Assembly (NCBI GenBank): GCA_015178975.1
Contig: WHVD01000010.1
Coordinates: 806,001-870,000, forward strand
Source: Hysterangium stoloniferum
Taxonomy: Eukaryota > Basidiomycota > Agaricomycetes > Hysterangiales > Hysterangiaceae
Direction of reading: 5' to 3'
DNA: 64,000 bases
Shown here: positions 30,611 to 59,500 of the stretch, piece by piece
Position numbering within the stretch: position 1 is the first letter of the stretch
Layout: every line of letters starts with the position of its first letter
Position numbers and translations under genes: made by a program
The notes under the pieces: model-generated
Databases searched by the model: none
Told to the model about the DNA's origin: nothing
Seen by the model: only the letters and a program-made list of their open reading frames with translations

Positions 30611-32412
30611 TTAGTATTTAGGATGGCCCCCCTTTGCTCTAATCACTGCTGCAAGTCTTCTAGGCATACTCTCAATAAGCTTCTGACACTCCTCCTTTGG
30701 AATCTCTTCCCACACCTTCTGCACCCTCTCCCACAGTTCATGAACACTATTTGCAGGCTGTTCATATTCCCCCAGTTTCTTTTTGACATGATTCCACAGA
30801 TGTTCAATAGGATTCATGTCAGGAGATTGTGCAGGCCACTTGAGGACTGTAACATCATGGTCAGTGAACCATTTCTGGGCCTTTTTGCTGGTGTGTTTGG
30901 GGTCATTGTCTTGTTGAAACACAATGTCAGCCACTGTTTTGTTGTAATATTTGAGGGTTTGCTGGAGTTCATCATCCAGGATCTCCACATAAAGCTCAGC
31001 ACCCATCCTCCCATCAATGTTGGTTGCAAACCCAACCCCATCCCAGCCCATGCATCCCCACATCATCAGGTTTCCTCCTCCAAACTTGACTGTTCCCTCT
31101 ACTAACCTATCATTTAACCCCTCACCCACATTTTTCCACACATATTTCCTTCCATCTGATCCCAGCCTATTAATATTAGTCTCATCAGACCATATGACCC
31201 TCTTCCAGTCCTCCAGGGTCCATTCCAAATGCCTTTCTGCAAACTCCAATTGAGATTTCCAATGATGAGGTTTGAGAAGTGGCCTTTTTCTCTTTACCAC
31301 AGCCCTCATGCCTATGGTTTTGAGGTGGTGATGCACTGTTTGTGAAGTAATAGGAGTGTTGATGATGTCTATAAGTTTCTTGGTTGCCTGTGTGGCATTA
31401 TCAACCTTTGTTAAGAACTGAAAACTGACTAATGTCAGTAGGCCGATGGGGACCAATCAGAAGGACTTGGCTTCAGCTTATATGCTGTGCCCTTGCAAAT
31501 ATCCATCGGGTGTCCTTAAATTTCAGATGGACGAAGACTAGTCCTGATGAGTGCCTCTCAGTGAGTTACCGATTGGGACCAAAGGATAAGTCGAGTGTTG
31601 GGCCAAGAGGTCAGGGACTGAGAGTGGGCGAGCGCACGCGAAGGTGGAGGGCAGAATACTTAGTATGAGACTTCTAGAGGTGTATGAGGGTATTCTGAGT
31701 CGAAATTCTGATTGCCTAGTAACTACGACTACAACGGGTTCATATACAAGTATTTGGCATCTAGAAAATACTAACTAGGAGAAGAGCAGAAAACATTATT
31801 GACAAATAAGCTTGACTAGGAACAGGAAGGTTACAATTAGTTCAGAGGCTGTGAAATAACCGAGAGTGGGATTACAAGAAAAGGAAATAGTCCGAGGGTT
31901 ACAAGTATATATAGACATATGTGAAACATAGAGTAAAATGGATCATCATAATAAAAAGGGGACGTATCAGAGTATAACCAGATAGTACAAGTATATTTTG
32001 ATGGGGGTGTAAATGGAGTTTGATTGCCACAAAAGCATATGTCAGCATCAGGAGACTGACAGTTTCTGATGACTTGAACAATAACTTGAATTGTCAATAG
32101 GTGGTGATAACCTTGGGGACTGTCAGGTTGTGACACGGTCATAACAACCTTCCCCATGCAAATTATTCTTCTAGCATAGGCAATATTGGCTGTGGTAAGC
32201 TTTGTAGGAGGGCCACCAGAGCATTTGGGGAGGTCAGGGTGATGCTCAGAACGAATATGACTGATGGTGGCACTGCTGAGATGAGTTTGGTAACATATTT
32301 GAGCTCCAGAAATGCCAGAGTCAAGTAGAGTAAGAACATGTTGGATTTGGCAGGAGGAGAGCTTTTTCATTGTGAGTAGGGTGATTGTGGGATTCCAACT
32401 GGTTGCTTTCAT
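30611..32412 (-). pseudogene. Tc1-type DD34E transposase, interrupted by LTR insertion
   Basis: ATG at 32412 opens a helix-turn-helix domain (SGISGAQICYQTHLSSATIS). Coding is broken at 32147 by a 738-bp solo LTR with its 5-bp duplication and resumes at 31403. The two parts total 1059 bases, 352 codons with no stop. Catalytic residues: D in VIWSDETN, D in FQQDNDPKH, E in MNPIEHLW, with 34 residues between the last two. Transposases of this family cut at TA. The insertion inactivates this copy; otherwise it looks recently active. Confidence 0.93.
31409..32146 (-). repeat. Solo LTR family A inside the transposase, TSD ACCTT
   Basis: 738 bp, TGTTAAG to CATAACA, flanked by ACCTT at 31404-31408 and 32147-32151. 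Compared with the 2200 copy many CG dinucleotides have become TG or CA. Confidence 0.97.
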
Positions 32413-54815: not shown

Positions 54816-54988
54816 TTCTCTGAACACTTTCCATTCTCTGAACACTTTCCGTTCTCTAAACACTTTCCGTTCTCTGAACACTTTCCGTTCTCTGAACACT
54901 TTCCGTTCTCTAAACACTTTCCATTCTCTAAACACTTTCCGTTCTCTAAACACTTTCCGTTCTCTAAACCTAAACACTTTCCATTCTC
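54816..54988. repeat. 18-bp minisatellite, about 10 copies
   Basis: Unit TTCTCTAAACACTTTCCG with G/A variants. On the minus strand it reads as ENGKCL/ENGKCS repeats. No start, no flanking coding sequence, so probably not a protein. Confidence 0.9.
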
Positions 54989-55032
54989 AAACAATGAGTC
55001 TCAGAAATACTTAAAAGTTGTTGACACAGGGG

Positions 55033-55056
55033 GTTTGGGGGGTGAACCCCCCCAAC
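55033..55056. repeat. G6/C6 hairpin
   Basis: TTGGGGGGT, loop GA, ACCCCCCCAA: about 9 bp stem with one unpaired C, 400 bp upstream of the hammerhead ribozyme. Confidence 0.7.
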
Positions 55057-55461
55057 AAGCTAGAGCCTGCAGCAAAGTTGTGGGGCTGGTTGCAAAGTGA
55101 CCGTAGTCACACAGGTTCCCACTTGATTATTTTACTCAACATTGTTTGGTAGGAATGCTGTAAAATTATTTTTTTTGAAAGTCTACTACTCCACCATCGT
55201 CTTGCTGCATGGACATCGACAGACAAGCCAGCAGGGAAACCTGCTACCTCGCAGCACGACCTATGTCAGCTTAGGTGATCGTTGATCTCGGGTTAAAGCA
55301 CCTCCTGACAGGTGTACCGCCCAACCGTATACTACCCACCATCGGGTCTCAAGATTCTTGGAATTGCGTTGTGCGCAAAGTCGGCACAAATTCATTATCT
55401 TATCACTCCCTTTGGACCAGGCTCAGTAGTAGACTCCTAAACAGTAACTCTGGAAGGATGA

Positions 55462-55517
55462 AACGGTAGGGGTAGCGGTATCCCCCTGATGAGAGCTTTC
55501 GTCGGCTCGAAACCGTT
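55462..55517 (+). ncRNA. Type III hammerhead ribozyme
   Basis: All conserved core positions are present in order: stem III 5' strand AACGG (55462-55466), cleavage triplet ending UA (55467-55468, cut expected after 55468), stem I GGGG/CCCC (55469-55472 and 55482-55485) with loop UAGCGGUAU, CUGAUGA (55486-55492), stem II GAGC/GCUC (55493-55496 and 55505-55508) with loop UUUCGUCG, GAAA (55509-55512), stem III 3' strand CCGUU (55513-55517). The A of GAAA pairs with the U before the cut, as it must. Loops I and II are of a size that allows the known tertiary contact. Stem III is the open end, which makes it type III. Such ribozymes self-cleave and often process repeat-derived or circular RNAs. Confidence 0.88.
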
Positions 55518-55664
55518 ACAGTCCGTTTCTCCTAGCCACCCTCTACTCTAGCTGACAAAGTTCAATCTTCGGAGACAACTGATTGCGGCGATTGATAAGG
55601 TGGTGGTCTGCCCAGCGGCGCTCTGGTGGACGCTGGTGACCATGCGTTGCTATGGTCACCTTGC

Positions 55665-56215
55665 TAATAACTGAAGAGCTGAACTCATACTAATCTAGAT
55701 ATTCGGAGTGGTAAATAATATACCTCCCGTCATGGATAACGATGTAATATTTACAGTTATATGCCTACGCTCGACCCCCCATTAGTACGTCCAGTCTTCT
55801 CACAATTGCAACAAATCAGACAAGTCCCCAATTATCAGAGGCATGGCAGATGCACCGTGCTCTGCTTTCAACGGGGAGTCATTACATAACCACATCCAGT
55901 CTGTCCATTGAAAGTGCAAAGTGCACCAACTCCTTAATTTCCCCGTTATTAGCATTACAGGCCGATCAGGACGTCCTTTCACAATGCCAGAAGGAGATGG
56001 TATTGATTTTAAGACCACTTTGGTACAGTTGCGATATGTGCAAACCTGAAATACTCCAGTTCCCGTATTTGTCGCAGCCTCATTATTTTTGGTGGCCTCC
56101 ATAGTCTTCTTACCCGTCGAGGTTTGTTTCTATTCCTATACGTCCCAATCCTCAGTATTATTATTACTTCTTTGTAGACGGCTGGCAAAACTGCGTTTTA
56201 GAATTAGTGAAGTCG
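55665..56215 (+). pseudogene. Decayed copy of the 3' end of the MFS transporter
   Basis: Follows 18010-18560 of the intact gene: ACTAATCTAGATATTCGGAG, CAGTTATATGCCTACGCT, GATGCACCGTGCTCTGCTTT, TTGTCGCAGCCTCATTATTT, ending ACTGCGTTTTAG. Both exon and intron sequences are present, so it is a DNA-level copy, not a retrocopy. Substitutions and small gaps destroy splice sites (for example AACGG where AACAG|GT stood) and the frame. Same orientation as the intact gene, 37 kb away. Similarity goes on to about 56335. Confidence 0.9.
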
Positions 56216-56335
56216 AACTTTCCTGAGGGCATCGGCTGGCCCTTCACTTGAGGAGATCATCCGAACCGATTATTTCACAAATCCATAATACTGCAGGGGT
56301 CATAAATTTCGTAAATTTCATTATGTGAGTAATCA

Positions 56336-56582
56336 ACAGGAAATGAAATAAAGCAGATCGGAAAGTAACGAAGGTGGAGGCGAAGACGAAGCAAGTGATG
56401 AATAAGTCAATGCAGGATATGATGCGAAGGTATACAGAGAGGAAGAAGCATCAGTACACGTGGATGTCATATAGAGATACAAGCAAATTATTGTGAAGAT
56501 GTCCAAGGTCGTATGAGAGGGGAAATCCGATATAATAAGCAAAAGAAGCCAAATGGAGTAGCCATGGCCGTCAAACGATCAA
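56336..56582. other. 3' flank of arrestin-like gene
   Basis: No separate feature seen; likely 3' UTR. Confidence 0.5.
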
Positions 56583-59500
56583 TCACGATGCAGCCTGTTG
56601 ATACTTCTTGATCAGATCCTTCAACCGAGCCTGTCCAAACGCCATCTCACGGAGTGGTGGTGGTGGTGGTGACGATATCCGCCCGGGACCCTCCGATTCC
56701 TTAAAATCTGCCCCATCTTCAAGAGTCGGGCTAAGAGAGGGCGGTTTAACTCTTGGAGACCGCGAGATGATAGGCCGCGCGAGAGATGCTGTAGATGATA
56801 ACTGGGGTGTCGCGTGTGAAGGGATGACAGTGGCGGGAGCTGACGTAGATTTAATAGCATTGCGGGGCACTTGAGCAGGAGGCGCAGGAGCGGACACAGG
56901 CGCAGGAGTAGGCGCAGGCGCGGTAATGGGAGCACTAGCAACAGCTCTCCTCGGCGTTCCAGCAGATGGACTCGGTTTCGACTTACCAATATCCAAGACC
57001 GCAGGACGCTTAACAGGAGGTGTATTAGTAGCTTTCTTGGCAGGCTTATGCACAGGGGGAGCGCTCGTTTCTCCACTGTTTTCCTCAGCTAGTGAAGTCC
57101 AAAGGGCAGCCACGGACGTTGCAATTCCGCCTTTACCGCCACGTGCTGAACGCACGTCATATTTAGTTTCTGGGATAGATTTGGAAGACGGCAATTCAAG
57201 ACGGCGCATGGCCCTGTTAATGTCTGGAGCAGGACCGGGAGGGGCTAGTGTACGTGGCTTCGCTTCGGACAATTTATCCTTTAACGGAGGAGCATTCTTG
57301 GGTTGAGGAAGGGAAGGAGGAACCAGAGGCTTGGTTGGTGATGCTGGCAATGCTGTAGAAGGTAAAGAAACAGATGTGTACAGACTCGCTTTCTTGACAG
57401 GCTTTCTAGGCGGTAAATCGGGCTTCTTAGGGGGTATTGGGCCTTTCGCAGGCGACTTAAACAGTTCCGGGGAAGGAGTCGGTACACCAACCGACTTTGA
57501 CCTTTCTTCTTCAGAGGGCATATCCATTTGGCTGACAGGCGGAAAGGAGGGAGAGGATATTCTAGCGGCGGTGTTAACAAGTACAGATAACTGGTTAGCG
57601 CTTGATTCATCTGCTCCCTGTACTGCATTTAGCGCCGTGATGGTCGGCGTTCGGGGAGATGGTGTTCTAGCATGCATTGGCTTCTGTGAGGTGCCGGATG
57701 GAGTCAATCTTCCCTCCACGATACTGTTCTTTCGCTTCCGGACCGGCTCGCTAGTGCTACTCGCACTCCCTGGCATCACGTCGGATGGCGCACCTAGCCC
57801 ATCCAGCCAATCGGCCACTCTCCCCTTGGCTGCTTTCCGAAGCTTATGTACCTCATGTTCTTTGACCTTTTCTTCCTTCCCATGTATAGGCCCACTCCCC
57901 GTGCGAGGTTGAGGACTAGCCGGCGATCCGTATGAGGGTGAGGTCAATGCAAAGTCTGACATTTCAGAATCACGCAGATTCATGGGGGCCAGAGGGGGAG
58001 CTCCAGACGTCGCCGCTGACACAGTGTTCGGTGTCGGAGTAAAGCCTAAGCTGAAGAGAGTAGGTCGTTTAGCTGTTTCCGGCTTTCTAGTCCCAACTTC
58101 CTGCAAAAGTCGTTTTTCCAGCGCATCCAAACCACTGACCGGCATTGCTGGCACGCGGCCTCCGTGCTGAGGCGGGATTAAGCCCTTACCATCTGTACTG
58201 ATCCGCCTCGCCATAGGGCTGGGTCTCAACACCGATTTTGCTGGCTGATCAACGGATTTGACGACATTATGAGTCTCACTGGCAGACATCGCGCCGAATA
58301 CGTCCATAGCCTTCGGTAGACCCCCTTTCTTACTCTTACTCTTGGGTTGGACCTTCCCGCTGGGCACCGGAGGACCCGGTAATGTCTTGTCTACAGCTTT
58401 CTCAGCCCTGAGATTCCTCTCCTCCTCCCTCTCGGCCTGTTCTAAATCTTTCAGAACTTCCTCTACGCTTTTCCCCTCATCCTCAGGCCCGAGATCAACG
58501 AGCCTTTCAAGAAGATCGACGCGGTCACTACGCGTCGTCCCATTGCCGAGATTGGCACCCGGCAATTCCGCGGTAAAGGAGTTTCCTGGAGACGCGAGCG
58601 GCCGAGGGGATAAAACGGGTAGTGCGTGACGTGGGCTTGTAGCATGTGGACGTTGTGGCGTTGAATTTGTGAAGGCGGGGGGACCGGGAGGAGGGACCGG
58701 GAATCGATGGGAGGTAGGTGACATTGATCGCGCACGCGTTAAATTATGCAAATGATGTGATATACGTGATGCACGTTCGCCTTTGCCTTCTTCTAAGCCT
58801 GGATCTTGGGCAGGAGGGATGTTCTGCTGTGTAGTAACGGAGGCACGAATTTCAGGAACATGTGCTGAAGGTGAAAACACAGGATTTTTATGTGTATCTG
58901 GTAGCCCGGTTGGTTGTGGAGACATATGATAAAAGGGTTGTGCACCTGCACTGCTAGGTCGAGTGGGATATGCAAAGGGAATTAAACCAACAGGTGGAGG
59001 AGGGTAATAGTATTGCTGATTAGGGTCAGGGAGAAAATAAGGAATCGGTGACACAACTCGCTGCAGAGGCGACTGGAGCCGTTGGTCGTGTGGAGGTGAT
59101 ACATATGCAGGATGTTGAGGAGGGGTCTGGTAATATGGGGATGCGGATAATGGAGGAGACATATACGGATAAGCTGGCGATGAATTACCAGATGCAGGAC
59201 CAGGCGAACGGCTAAAGTAAGGATTGGGAGGCAAGAACGGAGATGCAACGCGTGGATCACTGTAGTCGTAGACTGGCTCTGCTTCGTAAGGAATGGGATC
59301 ATATGGGTCCATGTCAGGTGGAACTTCAGGAAGGGCTGCACGGTGACTGAGCTGAACAGGCATCTCAAAAACGATGTCCTTGCTGAAAAGACATGAGAGA
59401 TGGTCGAAACTTGCAAGTTGGCGCATCACTTACTTCCCTAGTCCCATACTTATCTTCACACCTAGAATACACCGAATCTCAAACAAAGGCTCCGTACACT

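Follow-up and report, generated by a model that had tools for sequence, protein, structure and literature searches.

Why does a complete, putatively self-cleaving RNA motif stand among transposon remnants in the genome of the basidiomycete Hysterangium stoloniferum, and does it belong to something that moves? We addressed this question in a 64,000-nt stretch of contig WHVD01000010.1 (the window), in which a first-pass annotation had placed a type III hammerhead ribozyme at 55462–55517 and had suspected a surrounding ribozyme-bearing repeat. Comparison of copies across the assembly places the hammerhead within a dispersed element of 479 bp, and we conclude from these copies that the ribozyme-bearing mobile element is real, multicopy and recently mobile. 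Fungal genomic hammerheads have been listed in surveys, in the available parts of which they stand without a host element of defined ends; the element described here offers such a host, young and multicopy, with exact insertion sites and a permissive change of the cleavage base.

The window contains a complete type III hammerhead motif

The type III consensus is present throughout: the core CUGAUGA and GAAA, the U-A pair beside H17, and three stems of which stem III is open. Stem III pairs 55462–55467 (AACGGT) with 55512–55517 (ACCGTT) over 6 bp including the U-A pair, and is followed by A55468 as H17. Stem I pairs 55469–55472 (GGGG) with 55482–55485 (CCCC) over 4 bp with a 9-nt loop, and stem II pairs 55493–55496 (GAGC) with 55505–55508 (GCTC) over 4 bp with an 8-nt loop; the core segments CTGATGA and GAAA occupy 55486–55492 and 55509–55512. 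The coordinates given by the first-pass annotation were right, as were the full core, its order and the three stems. In hammerheads the cut follows H17, where any base except G is permitted.

The Rfam hammerhead III scan that the annotation had proposed gave a divided answer. At the gathering threshold there was no match in the 64-kb window; a permissive scan of 54900–56400 (1,501 nt) matched RF00008 at 55461–55518 with 30.2 bits (E 4.7e-4), below the gathering score of 48.5. With a model from 26 relatives, the window copy itself among them, the site scores 97.3 bits. A structural descriptor that requires the core, at least 4 bp in both stem I and stem II and at least 5 bp in stem III finds this single site in the window and is satisfied by 0 of 400 dinucleotide shuffles, in agreement with the earlier claim that chance occurrence is very low; the looser pattern CTGATGAN{6,20}CGAAAC arises in 4 of 100 shuffles. 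For a second ribozyme on the minus strand the best match reached only 10.4 bits (E 0.63), and a hairpin-ribozyme match at 55217–55246 was dismissed as weak (E 5.2). We conclude that the hammerhead at 55461–55518 is real and complete in sequence.

The hammerhead lies within a short dispersed element

Similarity searches were made in the window's own 111-Mb assembly, with about 40 best candidates scored per search. The query 55000–55660 yielded 584 candidates at first look; 40 of them were scored, and the 39 besides the window start at query positions 179–202, near 55190. The query 55400–57000 gave 179 candidates, again with 40 scored, and 36 of the 39 besides the window end at query positions 266–271 (window 55665–55670). 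Because copies share this start and this end, we define the unit as 55190–55668. The suspected ribozyme-bearing repeat therefore exists, with limits that differ from the 55.0–55.66 kb first assigned to it, and no description of a fungal hammerhead element of this kind turned up among the papers listed from the open-access literature, as judged by titles and abstract openings.

Copies open with TCCACC and close with a palindromic hairpin, after which comes TTGCTAAT or a near variant of it. This hairpin-plus-3′-end pattern has 101 genome matches, compared with 0 for its reversed control. The ribozyme pattern, with up to 3 mismatches, has 156 matches, 76 of them perfect, and since its reversed control yields 61, only part of the 156 can be real; the perfect matches include copies of a second, different repeat family described below. 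We estimate that the genome holds about a hundred copies of the element. After GCT at the 3′ terminus, 55 copies continue with AAT (25), AT (19), AA (8), A (1) or another ending (2).

The 479-bp unit has no coding capacity and no reverse transcriptase frame, and a longer relative may exist elsewhere. An autonomous longer version was set aside as a candidate: the four 3′ ends that were read among those listed without a listed ribozyme match (about two dozen such ends being unread) all proved to be the same short element with its ribozyme. Further copies were found, as the first-pass annotation had anticipated, and the tandem or dimeric units that it had in mind were absent from the loci examined. 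Among 76 loci that contain a match and are at least 3 kb long, some overlapping others, no second copy on the same strand lies closer than 5.7 kb; two ribozyme-covering copies occur in 4 of the 76, as three opposite-oriented pairs and one pair 5.7 kb apart. A tandem circular-RNA unit was rejected, the single head-to-tail pattern match (C9:123402) being an element behind which stands a short sequence resembling its start, and not a second copy. A tie to ambiviruses or other circular RNAs, also suggested earlier, was not borne out by one scan of IMG/VR with one pattern, which gave 0 exact matches. A solo long terminal repeat (LTR) was rejected for want of TG..CA ends and a 4–6 bp duplication, and the inverted pairs C519 and C546 were rejected as transposon ends because they sit in larger inverted duplications that extend past the element on both sides. 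Two loci, L069 (1199–5924) and L070 (551–7576), contain inverted duplications of 1.5 and 2.8 kb with at least 99% identity and an element copy in each arm.

Two young subfamilies keep the ribozyme core

From loci L001–L096, some of which overlap, we retained 56 full copies in which the match reaches both ends. Loci dropped as truncated, split or internally deleted include L026, L027, L032, L044, L046, L049, L058 and L059, as well as L069, L073, L077, L082, L083, L086, L087 and L090. L054 and L068, both retained, have identical flanks and so are not independent. DNA similarity supplied 30 of the 56 copies, and ribozyme-pattern rows supplied the other 26, including all 20 of subfamily B, so the counts of ribozyme conservation are biased upward. 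By our own grouping, 26 copies belong to type A (the window's type) and 20 to type B, with 10 in between. Copies diverge from their subfamily majority by a median of 2.3% in A and 1.9% in B, with minima of 0.4% and 0%. Given a median of about 2%, we conclude from the copy alignment that the family is recently active. The commonest substitutions among copies are C to T and G to A, the pattern that fungal repeat-silencing mutation would give.

The core is intact in 48 of the 56 copies, and in 34 of these all 14 pairs are intact as well. At H17, 33 copies have A, 19 have C, 3 have T and none has G, the remaining one having a gap. The A and B majorities are identical at 12/12 core positions and 54/56 ribozyme positions, compared with 371/419 across the element (about 11% apart; Fisher p 0.044). 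We conclude that the change of H17 from A to C between the predicted ribozymes of the two subfamilies keeps a permitted cleavage site. The copies very probably represent a real ribozyme-bearing mobile family.

At eight loci the ribozyme sits in another repeat, longer than the element and different from it. In L041, L048, L057, L080, L084 and L091 only 53–56 nt match the element (91–96%); in L067 and L093 the match covers 107 and 129 nt (90% and 86%). L041, L080 and L084 share flanks (97–100%), so not all eight loci are independent, and the core of L091 is altered to CTAATGA. Because these loci carry it in an otherwise different family, the ribozyme travels with more than one repeat, which suggests that it may be exchangeable as a module. 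Upstream of the ribozyme, L041 (1–1473) holds at least nine repeat units 96 bp apart. L091 (107–571) holds a 195-nt inverted repeat, 95% complementary, with the second family's core-changed hammerhead in its 75-nt loop.

Insertion is exact where it can be read

Empty sites were sought with joined flanks for 33 loci, plus a 39-base fragment of one more. Apparent empty sites elsewhere were found for nine of the 33 (L024, L022, L019, L008, L017, L013, L047, L030 and L034); since about 40 best candidates were scored per search, loci without one carry no meaning. Among these searches none revealed an empty site for the window copy, and L002 matched only itself. Compared base by base, L022 and L017 are exact against their empty sites with the element as TCC..CTAA, and L024 and L019 are exact with the element as TCC..CTAAT. 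L008 agrees with its empty site apart from flank substitutions, and for L030 and L034 the matches span the junction with equal length in query and genome, as read from the match table rather than base by base. L013 and L047 are not clean, their 5′ flanks differing from the empty copy at several bases.

A further copy, at about 1344–1765 of L036, sits in the T-loop of a tRNA-Thr(TGT) gene. Excising exactly TCC..CTAAT restores the ARAGORN tRNA call, and one base more or less on either side fails. A second tRNA gene, tRNA-Ile by ARAGORN, lies upstream in the same locus. No target duplication was found in the readable clean sites or in L036. The exception is L002, in which a 98-bp, 99% identical direct repeat abuts both element ends, the sole such copy among those compared. 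Immediately before the element, 55 copies have A (18), G (18), T (11) or C (8), so that there is no A|T target. Where readable, insertion was exact, without target duplication or preference.

The plus strand is predicted to be structured

The consensus fold closes the element, with 5′ TCCACC pairing with GGTGGA just ahead of the 3′ hairpin (Table 1). Nine helices with 50 pairs were named after the consensus fold and the hammerhead consensus had been seen; in the 56 copies 96.6% of their cells are paired, compared with 30–47% with slid partners. Two-sided changes occupy 32 cells, a number that, like the covariation score, was matched by 0 of 500 shuffles, a kind of shuffle that related sequences can exceed without structure; further pair types number 31, the shuffle mean being 31.5. 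At pair 48–55, G-C has become A-U by a clean double change in 7 copies, all from one subfamily, and the two-sided change in pair 302–359 may be CpG decay. In the ribozyme considered separately, 97.4% of cells are paired and 5 have a two-sided change, a number as high in 3 of 500 shuffles. The window copy folds with a z of −3.5 on the plus strand (0 of 100 shuffles as good) and −1.7 on the minus strand (7 of 100).

Table 1 Features of the element, in window coordinates
Feature	Position	Strand	Basis
Whole dispersed element, 479 bp, 5′ TCCACC ... 3′ GCTAAT	55190–55668	+	Shared copy boundaries; empty sites of other copies
5′ end TCCACCA, predicted partner of 55624–55630	55190–55196	+	Consensus fold, pair counts, window-copy fold
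Hairpin AGCAGG-GAAA-CCTGCT near 5′ end	55230–55245	+	Double change from G-C to A-U (one subfamily, 7 copies)
Type III hammerhead ribozyme	55461–55518	+	RF00008 30.2 bits; intact core 48/56 full copies; pairing in 97.4% of stem cells
Predicted cleavage junction, after A55468 (H17)	55468–55469	+	Hammerhead consensus; H17 A, C or T and no G wherever a base is present (55/56 copies)
Competing 8-bp hairpin CTGATGAG/TTCGTCGG, would bury core	55486–55505	+	Minimum-energy folds; 99.6% of 448 cells paired, 56 copies
TGGTGGA, 3′ arm of terminal stem	55624–55630	+	Consensus fold, pair counts, window-copy fold
Subterminal palindromic hairpin GGTGACCAT/ATGGTCACC, 3 nt before CTAA, 8 nt before 3′ end	55635–55660	+	101 vs 0 pattern matches; 99% of cells paired
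3′ terminus TTGCTAAT	55661–55668	+	Comparison of 55 copies

How the element might move

We propose that the element is a short (about 410–490 bp), non-coding, non-autonomous mobile element that spreads by RNA copying, a proposal to which we give an even chance; whether the RNA is the mobile form is, to our minds, just as finely balanced. The plus strand would be transcribed and fold compactly, its 5′ end paired near the 3′ hairpin. When the hammerhead forms, the RNA would be cut after A55468 into a 279-nt 5′ piece with a 2′,3′-cyclic phosphate and a 200-nt 3′ piece with a 5′-OH. The hammerhead might form only during RNA synthesis, a more stable fold burying its core, and RNA in this alternative fold would stay whole and could act as template. 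The ribozyme would release or process element RNA from longer transcripts, and a copy would be placed at a nearly blunt break by the enzymes of an autonomous retroelement, to which the 3′ hairpin would serve as recognition signal.

Our preference for an RNA route rests on the structured plus strand, the retention of the ribozyme in both young subfamilies, a 3′ terminus that varies by one to three nucleotides among copies, and the direct repeat of L002. A variable 3′ terminus and a long flanking direct repeat are familiar from retroposition. More tentatively, the element might represent a new fungal class in which self-cleaving RNA, or cDNA, is joined at blunt breaks, with exact ends and no target preference, by neither usual target-primed retroposition nor Helitron transposition, and in which the conserved hairpin would be an off-switch that spares whole templates; this we hold possible, and rather doubtful.

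Several observations weigh against spread by RNA copying with an active ribozyme. Clean insertions without target duplication are unusual for retroposons driven by long interspersed nuclear elements, and the copies have no poly(A) tail. No promoter was identified: a scan of 54900–56400 up to E 10 gave no match to the tRNA, 5S or 7SL families of Rfam, promoter boxes not being searched. No mobilising enzyme of the RNA kind was seen, no direct search for one having been made. The ribozyme is not uniquely conserved, as 46 of 364 equal-length windows match its A-versus-B similarity, and within A, where 19 of 26 copies keep the core, random columns do as well (P 0.40). The nine helices have 3 pairs with two-sided change against a shuffle mean of 2.8, and the ribozyme has 1 against 1.1 (404 of 500 shuffles as high); the two-sided cells stem from few pairs, and C-to-T and G-to-A decay may explain part of them.

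The competing hairpin belongs with these observations. CTGATGAG pairs with TTCGTCGG in the minimum-energy and consensus folds, from which the hammerhead is absent. The best fold and the hammerhead have −20.0 versus −17.6 kcal/mol for 55461–55518, −25.1 versus −22.7 kcal/mol for 55455–55525, and −38.3 versus −24.5 kcal/mol for 55441–55540, in a model outside which loop-loop and tertiary contacts lie; a minimum-energy hammerhead is no strict criterion of membership. In the 56 copies the competing hairpin's changes are one-sided only. One possibility is an off-state, like that attributed to viroid RNAs, in which full-length templates would be kept whole; another is that the hairpin is a sign of a weak ribozyme. 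Because this hairpin is conserved and predicted to be more stable, we lowered our confidence in self-cleavage from high to fair, and consider that the element RNA probably cleaves itself.

Alternative explanations

The main rival is a Helitron-like (HUH, rolling-circle) non-autonomous DNA element, carrying the hammerhead as cargo and moved by resident Helitrons, which we think somewhat unlikely. The ends of the element are Helitron-like, with 5′ TC and a 3′ CTA or CTAA after a subterminal palindrome, and its clean sites have no target duplication. Helitron_like_N also has at least 151 matches in the genome, and among the rows listed 19 lie in open frames of more than 1,500 aa with no stop in the match; this Helitron population is possibly active. 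For the literature compared here and below, statements refer to the parts of each article available to us. Helitrons of Pleurotus (PMC4289320) share with the element the 5′ TC, a CTRR-like 3′ end, the subterminal hairpin and the lack of target duplication. An A|T insertion rule is reported for them (PMC4289320), however, and the element differs from them in its lack of an A|T target, its variable terminal bases, its RNA structure and its ribozyme. Copies end CTAA, CTAAT, CTAT or CTA, and the T after CTAA is missing from the empty sites of L024 and L019. The spacing from hairpin to CTAA is only 3 nt, as against 5–8 nt in the search rule and about 12 nt in the introduction of PMC4289320.

The neighbourhood bears on the same alternative. 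A 107-nt match at 87% identity links 54998–55103 to a sequence that lies downstream of a Helitron Rep domain, at a distance of about 4.7 kb (C334; L117), in keeping with the transposon-rich surroundings described in the first-pass annotation, and because of this resemblance we place a Helitron tail that probably ends about 85 bp before the element. This recognisable tail has a different hairpin from that of the element, and, judged by eye among the matches listed, the closest that a Helitron gene comes to an element copy is about 9 kb (C546). A Helitron origin would also leave the plus-strand RNA structure unexplained. The segment 54600–55103 contains 18-bp tandem repeats and a G-rich hairpin.

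The hammerhead could instead be the relic of an older retrozyme, Penelope-like element or viroid-like RNA, irrelevant now to a family that spreads by other means. The ribozyme lies internally in the element, its core is broken in 8 of 56 copies (core or pairing is defective in 22), random columns are kept as well as the core in subfamily A, and a conserved, more stable fold buries the core. Both young subfamilies nevertheless keep the whole core with only the permissive H17 change, and a second, otherwise different family also carries the ribozyme, and we judge a relic to be improbable. Chance resemblance, despite the sub-threshold Rfam score and the shuffles that reproduce the looser core pattern, is barely credible given that no shuffle satisfied the full descriptor and that the core is kept between subfamilies.

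Relation to known ribozyme-bearing systems

Penelope-like elements and Terminons encode reverse transcriptase. These retroelements have hammerheads, as the element does (PMC6431247, PMC7229834), theirs being minimal type I variants (PMC7229834) in contrast to the type III motif found here. Plant LTR retrozymes (PMC4918198, PMC7229834) are similarly small, non-autonomous and dispersed and have type III hammerheads; they differ in having two LTRs, each with a hammerhead, and a 4-bp target duplication, whereas the element has no LTR pair, a single internal ribozyme and no 4-bp duplication. Metazoan non-LTR retrozymes (PMC7229834) resemble it in their length of 150–450 bp, their hammerhead and their lack of LTRs, but have type I hammerheads, tandem repeats and a GC content below 50%, whereas the element is of type III, in single copies, with a mean GC of 53%. 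The target duplications and A-rich or repeat tail of short interspersed nuclear elements were not found in the element, with the exception of the 98 bp in L002. With no LTR pair, tandem dimers or coding capacity found, the element does not match the retrozymes of plants or of animals, nor does it match Helitrons that insert between A and T.

In fungi, five Rfam Hammerhead_3 matches are listed for Pleurotus ostreatus (PMC5040776), and for Yarrowia an association of hammerheads with interspersed repeats is reported (PMC3088659). Both place a hammerhead in a fungal genome, as here, that of Pleurotus likewise being of type III; unlike here, they come without element boundaries or insertion sites. 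A mushroom transcriptome study removed hammerhead transcripts (PMC8893723). An element with defined ends makes it testable whether self-cleavage helps a non-autonomous element to move, and bears on how ribozyme-bearing elements spread outside plants and animals and on which enzyme inserts DNA without target duplication.

Other features of the window

The dead transporter that the first-pass annotation had seen next to the hammerhead was not confirmed, as the 948-aa open reading frame at 56586–59429 on the minus strand has no Pfam match at E 0.001. On the same strand, Pfam identifies a retrotransposon gag frame at 1080–2180 and a Tc1-like transposase fragment at 30614–31456.
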